Source of the DNA: Methanosarcina acetivorans C2A
Lineage (GTDB): Archaea > Halobacteriota > Methanosarcinia > Methanosarcinales > Methanosarcinaceae
Direction: 5' to 3'
Assembly (NCBI RefSeq): GCF_000007345.1
Contig: NC_003552.1
Location: forward strand, 4,340,001 to 4,404,000
DNA: 64,000 bases
The translations under genes were made by a program, and so were the position numbers. Shown one piece after another: positions 56,757-63,916 of this stretch. The notes beneath the pieces are model-generated. The model did no database searches and was not told the DNA's origin. It saw only the letters and a list, made by a program, of their open reading frames with translations. Numbering within the stretch: the stretch's first letter is position 1; each line of letters begins with the position of its first letter.

Positions 56757-57512
56757 TTACTTTAAACTGTTTCTTACGTACGGATTAATTTTTTGCTTAT
56801 TAAGCAGTTTTTTGTAAAACACAAACCAGGGATTATCCAGAAAACCGATTACATTCTTACTGATAAGCTGCCCTATAACCAGAGGAAGGACAGGCATAAT
56901 CCCGTAATAAGCTATAACGACAAAGATCAGGGAGTCCAGTGTAAGATTAACAAAGTCACTTGCACTCGAACGAAGCCAGATATAAGGGTTTATCAGGGTA
57001 TCGTGTGGGAAGTTCTTTTCTTTTTGTTAAAAATGTTTTTTGAGGGATGCAAAGACCCAGGCGTCAAGGTTCGAGCAGACCAGAAAAGAAACCCAGCTTG
57101 CAATTGTGATCCTGATGCTCAGTCCAAAGAGGCTCATCCAGGCGTCTTCCAGTTCAAAGAAAGGAGCAGGGCTGAGACTTGTGACCATACCTATGAAGAG
57201 CACGAACAAAACCTGGGTCGCAAAAGCGATGAAAATGGAGATATGCGTTTTCCTCTCCCCATAGACTTCATTGATCATGTCCACGACCTGAGCAATAAAA
57301 GGATAGATGAAAACTGCCGCAGGAGCAAAGAAAGAGTAAAAGCCGAGGTCAAAGACAATAATACGCGTGGCAAGGATCTGGGAAGCCGCAAGGTAAACCA
57401 CATAGAAAGCAGTGAGCACGGTAAAACCGTTTTCAGGCATTTTTTTAATAACATAAACAGATGTATAAGTAGCAATTGTAAGAGTGATAATCCAGTATAA
57501 CCAGACTAACAT
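56757..57512 (-). pseudogene. YhhQ-type queuosine-precursor transporter interrupted by UAA
   Basis: A membrane protein of the VUT/YhhQ family, which imports 7-deazaguanine precursors. The first frame (57512-57027) has KMPENGFTVLTAFYVVYLAA, GFYSFFAPAAVFIYPFIAQV, DMINEVYGERKTHISIF (about 77-93, family hallmark) and LVCSNLDAWVFASLKKHF. A UAA at 57027-57029 stops it, but the same frame continues QKEKNFPHDTLINPYIWLRS, then SASDFVNLTLDSLIFVVIAY and PVLPLVIGQLISKNVIGFLD to a stop at 56757-56759. These are the expected last two helices, so one base change made the gene stop early. UAA is not the pyrrolysine codon. The full length would be 251 residues. Confidence 0.82.
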
Positions 57513-58037: not shown

Positions 58038-59402
58038 ATGGAAAAAGATACCAGCATTCCAGAAGACCTGAAACTTGCCGTACTTGAAAAGATCAAACCC
58101 ACGGAAGCCGAAAGAAAAATACTCACGGCAGTTCAGGAGGAACTTGCAGCAGAAGTAAAAGCGGCAGCAGAGAAACTTTGTGTAGCGGATATTTTTGTAA
58201 AAATGGTTGGTTCTGCCGCAAGAGGCACCTGGCTTTCAGGCACCCATGACATTGATGTTTTTATCAGCTTCCCCGAGGAAACCTCCAGAGAGGAACTGGA
58301 GAGGAGGGGCATGGAGATTGCCAGGGAAGTGGCAAAAAAAGCAGAGCATGCCGAAGACCGTCATGCTGAACACCCTTACCTGAACATTGTTTTCAAAGGC
58401 TTTGACGTTGACCTTGTCCCCTGCTTCAGGGTCGAATCCGCCTGCCAGCTCAAATCCGCGGTGGACAGGACACCCTTCCACAACGAATTCGTAAAAACCC
58501 ACATAAAAGGCCGGGAAGACGATGTCCTGCTCATGAAGCAGTTCATGCGCGGAGGCGGAGTCTACGGCTCGGAACTGAAAACCCAGGGCTTTTCAGGCTA
58601 CCTGACCGAACTCCTGATCATTCACTACGGCTCCTTCGAAAACACCGTAAAAGCCGCCTGTCTCTGGAAACCCGGCAAGAAAATAGACATTATGCAGCAC
58701 TCGGAAATGGAACATACCGAACCTCTTGTAATGGTAGACCCTACCGACCCCAAACGAAACGTTGCAGCAGCCCTCTCCCTCGACAAATTCTGCATGTTCA
58801 TGGACCACTGCCGGGAGTTTATGAAAAGCCCCGGACTCAACTTCTTTTTCCCGCCCCCCCTCTCGCCGCTTGAAGACAGAGAATTCCTTGAGAAGCTGGA
58901 AAGCCGGAAAAGTTCCCAGCTTGCAATTGTCTTCAAAACCCCCGATATTGTGGACGACGTCCTCTACCCGCAGCTCTACAAAATGGAACAGGCTGCAGCT
59001 GCCCTCCTGCACGAATACGATTTTTCGGTAATCAAAACCGGCGTCTGGTCAGGAAAGCCCGAGACCGTAGTCATGCTCGAACTGATCTCCGGCACCCTCC
59101 CCAACGTCAAGAAAAGAATCGGTCCTCCGGTCTGGGTCAGGGAGCACGCCGAGAAGTTCAAAGCCAAGTACGAAGGGGCTGAAAATGTTTTCGGAGGCTA
59201 TATCGAAGGCGGAAAGTACGTCTTTGAAATCCAGAGAAAATATCCCACTGCAAAAGGGCTCCTTGAAAACCAGCTTCTAAACTGTTCCCTCGGAAAACAG
59301 GTCAAGAGCAGTGTGAGTGCAGGCTTTGAGGTCATCGAAGATGCAGAGATCTGCAGGCTGAAAGATCCTGATTTCAGGGTTTTTTTGAGGAAATGGGTGT
59401 AA
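58038..59402 (+). CDS. cca: CCA-adding enzyme, class I archaeal
   Basis: Adds CCA to tRNA 3' ends without a nucleic-acid template. The 454-residue class I enzyme has an N-terminal polymerase palm: KMVGSAARGTWLSGTHDIDV (about 56-75, with GSxxRGT and DID metal ligands), then YLNIVFKGFDVDLVPCFRVE (about 114-133, third carboxylate). Central segments are AVDRTPFHNEFVKTHI (about 139-154) and TQGFSGYLTELLIIHYGSF (about 182-200). The tail region with VMVDPTDPKRNVAAALSLDK (about 230-249) and the C-terminal alpha/beta domains complete it. Length is normal for archaeal Cca. It reads in the same direction as the HEAT/nucleosidase gene that follows 160 bases later, but the two are probably independent. 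Confidence 0.96.
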   Translation: MEKDTSIPEDLKLAVLEKIKPTEAERKILTAVQEELAAEVKAAAEKLCVADIFVKMVGSAARGTWLSGTHDIDVFISFPEETSREELERRGMEIAREVAKKAEHAEDRHAEHPYLNIVFKGFDVDLVPCFRVESACQLKSAVDRTPFHNEFVKTHIKGREDDVLLMKQFMRGGGVYGSELKTQGFSGYLTELLIIHYGSFENTVKAACLWKPGKKIDIMQHSEMEHTEPLVMVDPTDPKRNVAAALSLDKFCMFMDHCREFMKSPGLNFFFPPPLSPLEDREFLEKLESRKSSQLAIVFKTPDIVDDVLYPQLYKMEQAAAALLHEYDFSVIKTGVWSGKPETVVMLELISGTLPNVKKRIGPPVWVREHAEKFKAKYEGAENVFGGYIEGGKYVFEIQRKYPTAKGLLENQLLNCSLGKQVKSSVSAGFEVIEDAEICRLKDPDFRVFLRKWV

Positions 59403-59564: not shown

Positions 59565-62500
59565 TTGATAGATCAGGAAGAGATTCACAAGCAGTGTTTT
59601 AGTGATGATCCAAAAAAGCGTGTCAAAGCGGTAGAGCAATTAAAAGATAATTTTTCATTACATTCCAATAAAGAAAAGGCGTGGAACGACTTAATTAAGC
59701 TGGCCAATAGTGAAGATTGGCATGTAAATAATAATGCTACTTATGCCCTTATTTCTGTATTTTCTCAAGTGCCAGATAAACAACAGGCATGGAACGATTT
59801 GGTTAAACTCGCAACTGGTAAAGATAGTCCAGTAAGGTTTAGAGCTGCATCTATTCTTAGTTCTGTATTTCCCCATGTGCCAGATCAGCAAAAAGCAGAA
59901 GATGATTTACATAAGATGACCATCGATAAAGACAGCTTTATTAGGCGTATGGCTGCCTCTGTCCTTGGTTCTTCCTTTACTCAAGTTCCAGATAAAAGGC
60001 AAGCTTGGAATGACTTACATAGAATGATTACTGATGAAGAAAAGGACGTCAGGCGTATGGCTGCCTCTGCTCTTGGTTCTGTATTTTCTCAAGTACCAGA
60101 TAAACAACAAACTTGGGATGACTTAATTAAACTCACAACCGATAAAGATAATTCGGTAAGATCTAGGGCCGTTTCTGCTCTTGGATCTGCATTTCCCCAT
60201 ACACTAGATAAACAAAAAGCATGGGATGATTTGCATAGATTGACTACTAGTAACGATAGTTCAGTGAGGTCTGGTGTCGCCCATGTTCTTGGTTCTGCAT
60301 TCTCACACGTGCCGGATAAACAACAGGCATGGAGTGATTTACATAGACTGGCTACTGATAATGTTAATTCAGTAAGGTCTAAAGCCGCCCATACTCTTGG
60401 TTCTGCATTCTCACACGTGCCGGGTAAACAAAAAGCATGGAATGACTTGCATAGATTGACTACTGATGAAGATCGTTTTGTGAGGTGTAATGCCGCCTTT
60501 GCTCTTGGTTCTTCATTCTCACACGTGCCGGATAAGCAAAAAGCATGGAATGAAATACACAAACTAACGACTGATGAGGACAGTTTTGTAAGGTCTGGTG
60601 CAACCTTTGCTCTTCATTTTGCTTTTTCTCAAATTCCAGATAAACAACAAGCTTGGGATGACTTAATTAAACTCACAACTGATGAAAACAGTAATGTGAA
60701 AAGTAGGGCTACCGCTGCCCTTAGCTCTGTATTCTCGGACGCACCAGATAAGCAAAAGGCATGGAACGACTTACATAGAATTACCACTAATGAAAATAGT
60801 TCGATTAGATCTAGTGTCGTCTCTGCTCTTGGTCCCGTATTCTCACACGTGCCAGATAAACAAAAAGCATGGAATGACTTGCATAGATTGACTACTGATG
60901 AAGACAGTTTTGTGAGGAGTAATGCTGCCTTTGCTTTTTTTTTCGCTTTTTCTCAAGTTCCAGATAAACAGCAAGCTTGGAATGATTTAGTTAGACTTAC
61001 AACAGACGAAAACAGTAACGTGAAGTATACGGCTGTAGACGTCCTTGGTTCTGCGTTTTCTCAAGTGCCGGATAAACAACAGGCATGGAGTAACTTAATT
61101 AAACTTTCAACAGATGAAGACAATTGGATGAGGCATAGTGCCGTTTTTGCTCTCGGTTCTGCATTTTCTCAAGTGCCGGATAAACAACAGGCATGGAGTG
61201 ATATCCGTGGACTGACCATCAATGAAGATAGTGTTGTTAGGCGTATAACTGCCTCTGCCCTTGGTTCTGCATTCTCACACGTGCCGGATAAACAAAAAGC
61301 ATGGAATGATTTACATAGACTATCCATCGATAAAGACGAGGATGTTAGAATCTATGCAAACCATTCTCTTGGAAAAGTTTCCATCTTTAAGGCTTCTCAA
61401 GCAGAAAAAGAAGAAGATTACAAACGAGAATTGGAAATAGCAATTGAGTTCTTCAAAAAAGCAGCACAGGAGTCGGAATTGAGTAACCCATCTCAATTCT
61501 GTCTTCCTTTTTACCGTTCGTTCCATACAATAGTTTTCAAAAAACAGGAAGCAAAAGAAGAAGTAGACAAATATCTTGCAGAAGCAAAAAAGGCCGTTGG
61601 TGGTTCAAAAAGCAAAGAATTGCTCTTTGAAGCTGTTAATAACCTTGCAAACGCATTAAAAGAAGTCCAAGATCTGGAAAATCGAGACTTAGAGGAAAAA
61701 AAAGGTGAACTTAATTATTATAGGCAATACTGTGATCGTGCAGCAGAACTAATGAGAGATACCGAAGGAACCGCACCTTTTGCAACTATAGCAATGAAAA
61801 AAGGGCTGCCTATATTGGACAGAAACCTAAAAGAGCTTCTCGAAGAGATTCAAAAGAAAGCAAAGATCGCGTGTCAGGTTTCTCAAGGTACTTCAACACA
61901 AGAGATTGCATGTTCTATTAGTAAAGAAGTCCAAACATGGGAAATTGGTAGTCAGGAAGAAATGGCATTTTGTGTAGAGCGTTTTATATTTACTTTAGAA
62001 TCAAAAATTCCAAGGCTTCCAGAGAACGAGAATATTTTTAAGATTATCAATGAGAGCAAAGATCAAAAAGACATTAACAAATTGTTAGAGAATGCTTCAG
62101 AGTTGATAGAAATAATACCGGAAATAACCATTGATCCTGAGAGAATGAAACCGACAATTGGAATCATTACTGCTTTACCAAAAGAATATGCTGCGGTTAA
62201 CATATTACTGGAAAATAAAAAAGACAAATATAAGATCTCAGGCTATGGAGCAGGCCGAAGGTATTGCTTAGGAGAAATACTTTCCGAGGAAGGGAATAAA
62301 CACAACTTAGTTTTGGCAACTTCAGGCATGGGAAATAATATTGCTGCAACAAGGGCAGCTCTTCTTCTTGAGCACTTCCCAAATGTAAAATCAATTATTA
62401 TGGTTGGCATTGCAGGAGGTGTTCCAAATCCATATAAAGAGAATGTTGATGATCATGTTCGTCTGGGAGATATAGTTGTTTCAAATGAAAACGGGGTTAT

Positions 62501-63035
62501 CCAGTACGACTTGATAAAGCAAGAGATTCAGGAAATTACTTGTAGAAATCCTCCCAGACCACCGAGTTCGAGTCTTATAGAAGCAGTAAGATACCTTGAA
62601 GCAGAAGAAATTCTTGGAAATCGCCCATGGGAAAAATATATCGCTCAATCTCTTTCTCAACTTAAAATTGATCGTCCTTCCGAGGATAAAGACATTTTGC
62701 ACAATTCAGACAATCAGGATGAAATTATTTCTCATCCTGAAGACCCGAAGAGAGTAAATGGTCAACCTCGAGTCTTTACAGGACCTATCGCTTCTGCAAA
62801 TATACTTCAGAAAGACCCAAATGCAAGAGATAAATTACGGGATAAGTTCAAAGTAAAAGCCATTGAAATGGAAGCTTCAGGCATTGCAGATGCAACATGG
62901 AACCATGAAGTAGGTTATCTGGTGGTAAGGGGCATCTGTGATTATTGTGATTCTCATAAAAATGACGAATGGCAACAGTACGCAGCAGTTGTGGCAGCTG
63001 CGTATACAAGAGCCTTAATCGAATCGATTCCATAA
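59565..63035 (+). CDS. HEAT-repeat/nucleoside-phosphorylase fusion
   Basis: A 1156-residue two-part protein. Residues about 33-605 are sixteen tandem 36-residue HEAT-like units of the form DKQxAWNDLxxLTTDExSxV followed by RSxAAxALGSAFSxVP. Residues about 610-855 are a helical linker with TPR-like EKEEDYKRELEIAIEFFKKA. Residues about 861-1156 are a PNP_UDP (nucleoside phosphorylase/nucleosidase) domain: TIGIITALPKEYAAVNILLE, ATSGMGNNIAATRAALLLEH (about 917-936), VGIAGGVPNP (about 945), AIEMEASGIADATWN (about 1099-1113) and VVRGICDYCDSHKNDEWQQY (about 1120-1139). The EMEA Glu and the CDYCD Asp are the expected ribose and base contacts. The only start is TTG 59565. No membrane or signal segment is present. 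By analogy with NLR-like proteins it may be a sensor whose nucleosidase is switched on by repeat binding. Confidence 0.88.
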   Translation: MIDQEEIHKQCFSDDPKKRVKAVEQLKDNFSLHSNKEKAWNDLIKLANSEDWHVNNNATYALISVFSQVPDKQQAWNDLVKLATGKDSPVRFRAASILSSVFPHVPDQQKAEDDLHKMTIDKDSFIRRMAASVLGSSFTQVPDKRQAWNDLHRMITDEEKDVRRMAASALGSVFSQVPDKQQTWDDLIKLTTDKDNSVRSRAVSALGSAFPHTLDKQKAWDDLHRLTTSNDSSVRSGVAHVLGSAFSHVPDKQQAWSDLHRLATDNVNSVRSKAAHTLGSAFSHVPGKQKAWNDLHRLTTDEDRFVRCNAAFALGSSFSHVPDKQKAWNEIHKLTTDEDSFVRSGATFALHFAFSQIPDKQQAWDDLIKLTTDENSNVKSRATAALSSVFSDAPDKQKAWNDLHRITTNENSSIRSSVVSALGPVFSHVPDKQKAWNDLHRLTTDEDSFVRSNAAFAFFFAFSQVPDKQQAWNDLVRLTTDENSNVKYTAVDVLGSAFSQVPDKQQAWSNLIKLSTDEDNWMRHSAVFALGSAFSQVPDKQQAWSDIRGLTINEDSVVRRITASALGSAFSHVPDKQKAWNDLHRLSIDKDEDVRIYANHSLGKVSIFKASQAEKEEDYKRELEIAIEFFKKAAQESELSNPSQFCLPFYRSFHTIVFKKQEAKEEVDKYLAEAKKAVGGSKSKELLFEAVNNLANALKEVQDLENRDLEEKKGELNYYRQYCDRAAELMRDTEGTAPFATIAMKKGLPILDRNLKELLEEIQKKAKIACQVSQGTSTQEIACSISKEVQTWEIGSQEEMAFCVERFIFTLESKIPRLPENENIFKIINESKDQKDINKLLENASELIEIIPEITIDPERMKPTIGIITALPKEYAAVNILLENKKDKYKISGYGAGRRYCLGEILSEEGNKHNLVLATSGMGNNIAATRAALLLEHFPNVKSIIMVGIAGGVPNPYKENVDDHVRLGDIVVSNENGVIQYDLIKQEIQEITCRNPPRPPSSSLIEAVRYLEAEEILGNRPWEKYIAQSLSQLKIDRPSEDKDILHNSDNQDEIISHPEDPKRVNGQPRVFTGPIASANILQKDPNARDKLRDKFKVKAIEMEASGIADATWNHEVGYLVVRGICDYCDSHKNDEWQQYAAVVAAAYTRALIESIP
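59661..61376 (+). repeat. 108-bp coding tandem repeat, sixteen copies
   Basis: DNA-level repeats behind the HEAT units. Several neighbouring copies share long nearly identical stretches, such as TTCTCACACGTGCCGGATAA, which points to recent unequal crossing-over. Confidence 0.88.
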
Positions 63036-63067: not shown

Positions 63068-63916
63068 TCAATACAGCGAAACAAAACCCTCCAGCCTTTT
63101 CTGATAAAACAAATACTGCTGAGCATACCCGCAGTAATAGCCGAAGTATTCCCGCCCCCATTCTCCCATACAGCTCAGGTTCGTGCAGGTTTCAAAGTAG
63201 CTGTCATCGATGTGGTAATGCTGGATGATCTGCCTGACATGGGTGTCAACAGGGAAGGCTTCCATTTTCTCAAAGGCGAAAAGGAGAACGCAGTCGGCAA
63301 CTTTTTCCCCGATGCCGCGAAGCCTCATAAGGCGTTCCCTTGCGTACCGGTATTCCAGGCGGTAGAGGACGTTAAGGTCAAGTTCGCCTGAAGCCACATC
63401 TCTTGCTGCTTCTTTTATGCGTTCGGTCCGGAAGCCGAGCTTGCATTTGTCAAGCAGGGAAAGGTCGGCTTCTGCAAGGGTATCGGGGTCGGGAAAACTG
63501 AAATAGCCTTCTTCGAGTTCCTGACCGAAAAAGCGGCTCAGGAGATAAATTCGTTTCTGAATTGTGGGGATGCTTGAGGCTGTTGCGAGCATATAAGAAA
63601 TCAGGCATTCCCAGGGGTCCTGCCGGATCAGGCGAAGCCCGCTGTATTTGTTGATCGCCCTGTTTATCAGGAGGTCTTTGTTTATGCTTTCGTAAATCGA
63701 GGGCAGATCGTCGTCCAGGCGGAAATAGTGAGAGAAAAATTCAGGGGGGAGCCGGGAATCGATCAGCAGTTCTCCGCTGTCCTCCTCCTGCGAAAGCCGG
63801 ATAACATGGTCTCCTACAACACCTGTCCACCAGTCCCCTGACTTTTCCCAGCGGAAGACCTGCCCGCAGTCGAGGGTGTAATCGAGGTTGAAGATTTCGG
63901 GCTCAAGCCTGTACAT
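63068..63916 (-). CDS. OGG1-type 8-oxoguanine DNA glycosylase/lyase
   Basis: A HhH-GPD base-excision enzyme of 282 residues. N-terminal TATA-binding-like domain: LDYTLDCGQVFRWEKSGDWW (about 11-30, the CGQ(A/V)FRW motif of OGG1/AlkA). Middle: DPWECLISYMLATASSIPTI (about 100-119). HhH and catalytic lysine: MRLRGIGEKVADCVLLFAFE (about 194-213) with Lys near 202; then the catalytic Asp in AFPVDTHVRQIIQHY (about 219-233). The protein ends GYYCGYAQQYLFYQKRLEGF. It removes 8-oxoG from DNA and may nick the strand. It overlaps the end of the upstream sugar-kinase gene by 14 bases, so they are probably cotranscribed; it is convergent with the HEAT/nucleosidase gene. Confidence 0.93.
   Translation of the reverse strand: MYRLEPEIFNLDYTLDCGQVFRWEKSGDWWTGVVGDHVIRLSQEEDSGELLIDSRLPPEFFSHYFRLDDDLPSIYESINKDLLINRAINKYSGLRLIRQDPWECLISYMLATASSIPTIQKRIYLLSRFFGQELEEGYFSFPDPDTLAEADLSLLDKCKLGFRTERIKEAARDVASGELDLNVLYRLEYRYARERLMRLRGIGEKVADCVLLFAFEKMEAFPVDTHVRQIIQHYHIDDSYFETCTNLSCMGEWGREYFGYYCGYAQQYLFYQKRLEGFVSLY

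Follow-up and report, generated by a model that had tools for sequence, protein, structure and literature searches.

The gene lying between cca and a DNA glycosylase gene in the window (the whole stretch of 64,000 nucleotides of the Methanosarcina acetivorans C2A chromosome analysed here) encodes an array of HEAT repeats followed by a helical linker and a C-terminal PNP_UDP nucleosidase domain. Judged from sequence comparison, its product is a mosaic in which a front typical of its own chromosomal site is joined to a PNP tail resembling those found at a second site. We consider it reasonably probable that this protein combines, in one gene product, an intracellular sensor and an effector of the immune type, operating without an NTPase and depleting nucleotides, with ATP as the probable target.

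Architecture of the window gene and of the HEAT-linker family

The initial annotation had described sixteen HEAT units of 36 residues, a helical linker, a PNP_UDP domain with four intact motifs and no NTPase between sensor and effector, in a gene located between cca and a DNA glycosylase gene. Each of these points was borne out (Table 1). The HEAT units follow one another with perfect 36-aa spacing, match the Pfam family HEAT_2 (2e-55) and are encoded by DNA with a 108-bp period and 14.5 copies (TRF), far above chance. The linker was modelled by AlphaFold2 as all helices, with pLDDT values mostly between 75 and 90. The PNP domain matches PNP_UDP_1 (PF01048) from aa 864 to 1144 (1.4e-20), and GMGNN, GIAGG, EMEASG (aa 1101-1106) and CDYCD (aa 1125-1129) are all present in it. 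The PNP half of the AlphaFold2 model was too poor to be used, with a shallow alignment and few homologues, and a fold search with the linker-PNP model, of which this half is unreliable, gave no PDB match with E <= 0.001. A Pfam scan of the 1156-aa protein detected neither an NTPase domain (NACHT, NB-ARC or other STAND) nor a match to TRADD-N or EAD, and no receiver domain was found in it. Orthologs located at the same site likewise begin with a TTG codon and, in the protein, with I(D/N)Q(E)xIH.

The archaeal cca gene (TIGR03671, 7.7e-162) precedes the window gene on the same strand at a distance of 162 bp, and the convergent gene for the OGG-type glycosylase lies 32 bp downstream. Further upstream, a Vut_1-type transporter gene (window 56796-57512, minus strand) has an in-frame stop after 161 codons, which is TAA and not the TAG/pyrrolysine codon; its ortholog in L013 (90% identity) reads through 239 aa, indicating that the window copy is truncated.

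Table 1. Positions of the window gene, its parts and flanks, and of related features elsewhere
Feature	Position	Strand	Remarks
HEAT-linker-PNP gene	window 59565..63035	+	1156 codons, one intact ORF, TTG start
Sixteen 36-aa HEAT units, proposed sensor	window 59649..61376	+	aa 29-604; unit frame, 108-bp tandem repeat, HEAT_2
Helical linker, constant part across the family	window 61386..62138	+	aa 608-858
Approximate recombination breakpoint (putative)	window 61926..62030	+	aa ~788-822; cca-site type front / PNP-type tail
PNP_UDP nucleosidase domain, proposed effector	window 62142..63032	+	aa 860-1156; catalytic positions E874, E1103, D1126
cca (CCA tRNA nucleotidyltransferase)	window 58038..59402	+	conserved-site flank, outside the system
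OGG-type 8-oxoguanine DNA glycosylase	window 63068..63916	-	other conserved-site flank, outside the system
44-aa PNP fragment, argG site of the same genome	2643798-2643932		
HEAT-linker with nitrilase-type tail	L157:3-1865	+	9.1e-94 vs PADLOC CARF-nitrilase
HEAT-linker with nitrilase-type tail	L148:5851-8082	+	assigned from sequence likeness
TPR-like repeat protein ending in module b	L168:6015-9356	-	domain name from sequence reading
GNAT-like protein ending in module b	L167:2735-4501	+	domain name from sequence reading
DEAD/Ski2-type helicase with the same PNP clade at its C-terminus	L084:6888-10118	-	genome G043, other genus; 56% identity

The gene was first regarded as a lone one. It does stand alone at its locus, but it is not a lone oddity: the search of archaeal genomes for the same architecture, which had been suggested as a check, recovered a large HEAT-linker family with interchangeable C-termini, few members of which have PNP tails. 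We defined this family by a HEAT array, a linker matching our profile A2 and a variable C-terminal module, all three of which were found in the window protein. Sequence comparison of its members indicates that the HEAT array and the linker are the constant parts and the C-terminus the variable one. Of 393 Halobacteriota genomes sampled, 42, belonging to 15 genera, gave matches to profile A2. Within the Methanosarcinaceae, 112 genomes were searched; the linker alone was detected in 43 of these 112, whereas only 8 of the 112 contain the PNP domain, once as a helicase fusion and once as a fragment. A literature search, whose coverage was incomplete and which leaves novelty unproven, found no description of a HEAT-linker-effector family.

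The tails present among the relatives are the PNP domain, three modules called here b, c and d, other membrane-like tails and a nitrilase-type tail. Module b, the commonest of them, is an undescribed module made of a coiled-coil with three strands and a helix (alignment; model pLDDT 77); a fold search with this model gave no match, and neither module b nor the linker corresponds to a Pfam family. Since a TPR-like and a GNAT-like protein also end in module b, this module appears to be portable too, and we regard it as a candidate adaptor or effector with no assigned function. Module c is short and contains a motif resembling IPxIPxLxSYE, and module d is a hydrophobic tail. The nitrilase tail of L157 matched the DRT nitrilases of PADLOC more weakly than the CARF-nitrilase; on the strength of the latter match, the HEAT-linker and CARF-nitrilase families would draw on one effector stock. 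Members ending almost directly after the linker recur throughout the genus and could serve as regulators or partners; a paralog of this kind, with HEAT units and linker, is encoded in the same genome as the window gene (G000:C1:4189713-4192748; L016:5708-8770). The same genome also contains a broken linker with a module b remnant (G000:C1:3713089-3713710; L019), which again points to turnover among these genes.

Tail exchange at two chromosomal sites and diversification of the HEAT array

The cca-ogg site was compared in nine species or genomes, for four of which only one flank was fully seen, and the family members at this position carry the PNP domain (window), module b (five, one of them frame-broken), module c, module d or a truncated tail. 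A second site is located downstream of argG, where family members were found in nine loci, three of them, from three species, having a PNP domain. Over its first ~180 residues, the window linker is closest to the cca-site orthologs, with about 75-80% identity versus 57-68% for the PNP proteins of the argG site, and from about aa 788-822 onward the window protein is closest to these argG-site PNP proteins. Such a pattern identifies the window protein, at the level of sequence, as a recombinant of a cca-site front and an argG-site-like PNP tail. Among the PNP proteins, the linkers are 54-80% identical and the PNP domains 82-89% identical. On a tree of 79 linkers, 3 changes of the PNP label were required, all 3 being forced by well-supported branches, and 18 changes were needed for module b. 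Taken together, these comparisons indicate that tails were moved by recombination.

In M. acetivorans itself, the argG site, which is occupied by a HEAT-PNP gene in other species, contains only a PNP fragment, next to a predicted Gabija pair (G000:C1, about 2643798-2648000; L018:7799-11996). The gene beside the fragment matches GajA with an E-value of 9e-246, and the UvrD-type ORF at the site is taken as its putative GajB partner. The 150 neighbour proteins of the family surveyed with PADLOC and a Pfam scan, with no background control and hence no claim of enrichment, were mainly argG, ogg and ADP-PFK, and a few were GajB, PDC-S02, DRT-helicase and mads. Most of the neighbours are thus of non-defence types, and the surroundings of the cca-ogg site are housekeeping.

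The 77 proteins compared contain between 3 and 25 HEAT units, and those at the cca-ogg site between 5 and 25. For 41% of the units the nearest unit was located in the same protein, compared to 1.5% expected by chance, which points to duplication within the array or to concerted change. Five positions of the unit (24, 25, 28, 29 and 32) have a spacing that would place them on a single face of its second helix. In a split-sample design, in which the positions were chosen on half of the proteins and evaluated on the remaining half, they gave family-wide dN/dS values of 1.3-1.7 versus 0.36-0.38 elsewhere, all of these being counting estimates on related, non-independent pairs. The proposal that the HEAT array is fast-changing is thus supported for the family as a whole and for young arrays, in which the hypervariable positions reached roughly 1.4-3, but only in part for the window array, an old one (pS 0.58) in which the same positions gave about 0.8, fast but not above 1. 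An unrelated NACHT-HEAT array, taken as a control for the selection analysis, gave no usable information because of saturation.

The PNP domain and its relation to known effectors

The three catalytic positions of the PNP domain align, in order, with E12, E174 and D197, the catalytic residues of E. coli Mtn, and with the corresponding positions of Cap17-type sequences. The window protein matches the PADLOC model of PN-superfamily effectors (7.6e-20). A cyanobacterial STAND PNP protein has the same CDYxDSxKNDEWxxYAA motif, and distant PNP relatives encoded on Acinetobacter and Pseudomonas plasmids adjoin CBASS oligonucleotide cyclases, the place of the Cap17 effector. A tree of the PNP domain (16 rows, long branches, deciding forks 78/83) left undecided whether its kinship is with the CBASS/STAND PNP domains or with metabolic MTA/SAH nucleosidases. 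The same PNP clade forms the C-terminus of the G043 helicase, a fusion that is a candidate single-gene helicase-nucleosidase defence protein by its sequence. This helicase also matches Hachiman HamB models, which may reflect general similarity among Ski2-type helicases.

PNP has been tabulated as common to CBASS, Detocs, pAgo and NLR-like systems (PMC10952713), and the PNP effector of Detocs is reported to convert ATP into adenine and ribose-5'-triphosphate (PMC11249213). The window protein resembles the Cap17-type effectors of Detocs, CBASS and NLR-like systems, which are ATP nucleosidases, in having a C-terminal PNP_UDP_1 fold within a multi-domain protein and the same catalytic positions; it differs from them in its HEAT sensor and helical linker, in its archaeal origin and in the absence of a receiver domain, a cyclase partner and an NTPase. 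Detocs, moreover, is a three-gene operon with a receiver-PNP effector, whereas the window gene is alone and encodes no receiver domain.

The repeat arrays of fungal NLRs are of the WD40 and similar types. In those fungal NLRs that have PNP_UDP, a nucleosidase domain is likewise combined with a repeat array and effectors are exchanged (PMC9815663), but the window protein has no STAND NTPase, is ordered as repeats, linker and effector, and is built of HEAT units instead of WD40, TPR or ANK. The CRISPR type III CARF-nitrilases and the DRT RT-nitrilases share a nitrilase tail with the relative L157; the HEAT-linker replaces their CARF or reverse transcriptase part, and the tail of the window gene is PNP, not nitrilase. 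Kaur et al. (2020, 2021; PMC7159879, PMC8195603) described predicted conflict systems, NTP-dependent or of the TRADD-N/EAD kind, which have exchangeable effectors including PNPase together with HEAT/TPR superstructure repeats, and which occur a few times in multicellular archaea such as Methanosarcina. The family shares with them exchangeable effectors, PNPase included, and HEAT repeats; by contrast, the window protein is devoid of an NTPase, and its HEAT-linker-PNP architecture was not found in the passages of these papers that were consulted. Compared to known conflict systems, the family stands apart in that it lacks an NTPase, has an undescribed linker, is hosted by archaea and shows tails being exchanged at fixed sites. 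It should be noted that, according to a review from 2024, Detocs/PNP is absent from archaeal genomes (PMC11249213); the HEAT-PNP sequences are a counter-example if their domain is functionally of that kind.

Proposed mode of action and alternatives

In the model that we favour, the HEAT array would bind a variable ligand, most likely a protein of viral or other foreign origin, which is suggested because the copy number of its units changes and one helix face evolves fast. The conserved helical linker would couple this binding to the C-terminal module without an NTPase, probably via release or oligomerisation, and the PNP-fold nucleosidase would cleave adenine nucleotides, in the first place ATP, at their N-glycosidic bond, so that the infected cell is stopped. 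Cleavage of ATP is proposed because of the catalytic residues and of the kinship with PNP effectors, and by analogy with these we give about an even chance that ATP is the main substrate. The initial annotation had put forward a sensor-effector of the conflict type acting through depletion of nucleotides or NAD. The first part of this proposal has gained from the tail swapping, the defence-type tails, the site shared with Gabija and the diversifying HEAT units of the relatives, which together make an immune role of the window protein likely. The patchy occurrence of the PNP domain and the fusion of its clade to a HamB-like helicase point the same way. Counting against this role are the PNP tree, which does not separate the two kinships, the value of about 0.8 for the window array, the housekeeping setting of the cca-ogg site, the mostly non-defence neighbours of the family and the lack of a fold match for its commonest tail, module b. 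As to the second part, N-glycosidic cleavage of ATP or dATP is probable by analogy, but specific support for NAD was not found. NAD depletion was therefore not retained as the main chemistry.

The same machinery might instead respond to stress arising within the cell or to non-self kin in aggregates, a reading that we regard as unlikely. Methanosarcina does form multicellular aggregates, and one survey notes an enrichment of conflict systems in organisms of this kind (PMC7159879). Non-self recognition and cell death are the context in which fungal NLRs with PNP_UDP effectors have been discussed (PMC9815663, PMC12881547), and the lack of viral relatives of the PNP domain, both in a pattern scan of IMG/VR and in a tblastn search of 50,697 phage records, is also compatible with a trigger of this kind. 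However, the tails that the family shares with CRISPR and CBASS effectors and the occupation of the argG site by Gabija favour an anti-virus or anti-plasmid role.

We find it decidedly improbable that the PNP domain is a metabolic enzyme, either an MTA/SAH-type or another purine salvage nucleosidase, with the HEAT array serving as a scaffold or localisation device. The solved structures nearest to the domain are indeed MTA/SAH nucleosidases, with E. coli Mtn sharing its fold, all three catalytic residues are kept, and cca and ogg are housekeeping genes. By contrast, the domain is about 60 aa longer than Mtn, is fused to a HEAT-linker and scores far below the equivalog cut-offs (87.1 bits against 169 for PRK05584 and 47.6 bits against 73.8 for TIGR01704). 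Its occurrence is sporadic, a salvage enzyme would not explain the unrelated tails of HEAT-linker proteins at the same site in other species, and the quick turnover of the repeat units also argues against it. A secreted or contact-dependent polymorphic toxin, in which a constant delivery stem carries variable C-terminal toxins, would similarly combine a constant front with an exchangeable C-terminus, but it is most improbable here, as the Pfam scan recognised no secretion or delivery domain in the window protein, no small immunity gene lies between it and the convergent glycosylase gene, and the front is itself a diversifying repeat array.

Returning to the immune sensor-effector, its family could form a lineage-specific archaeal repertoire of immune receptors, like the NLR repertoires of fungi, in which NTPase-free HEAT-linker proteins would vary their recognition face under selection, gain and lose repeats, and swap their effector tails, such as PNP, nitrilase, membrane tails and new modules, through recombination at fixed sites. 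We put this wider view forward tentatively, holding it to be slightly short of an even proposition. If true, PNP nucleosidase effectors would exist in archaea on a type of receptor that has no STAND NTPase. The genes with different tails at the same site constitute a natural series in the genetically tractable Methanosarcina, with which it becomes testable what archaeal repeat-array receptors recognise and how an effector is switched on without a nucleotide-driven switch.

A conflict-like protein with a PNP domain of another type was also observed in Methanosarcina: in genome G100, a SEFIR/TIR-PNP-FGE-sulfatase fusion is encoded on the minus strand of L134 (5361-7538).
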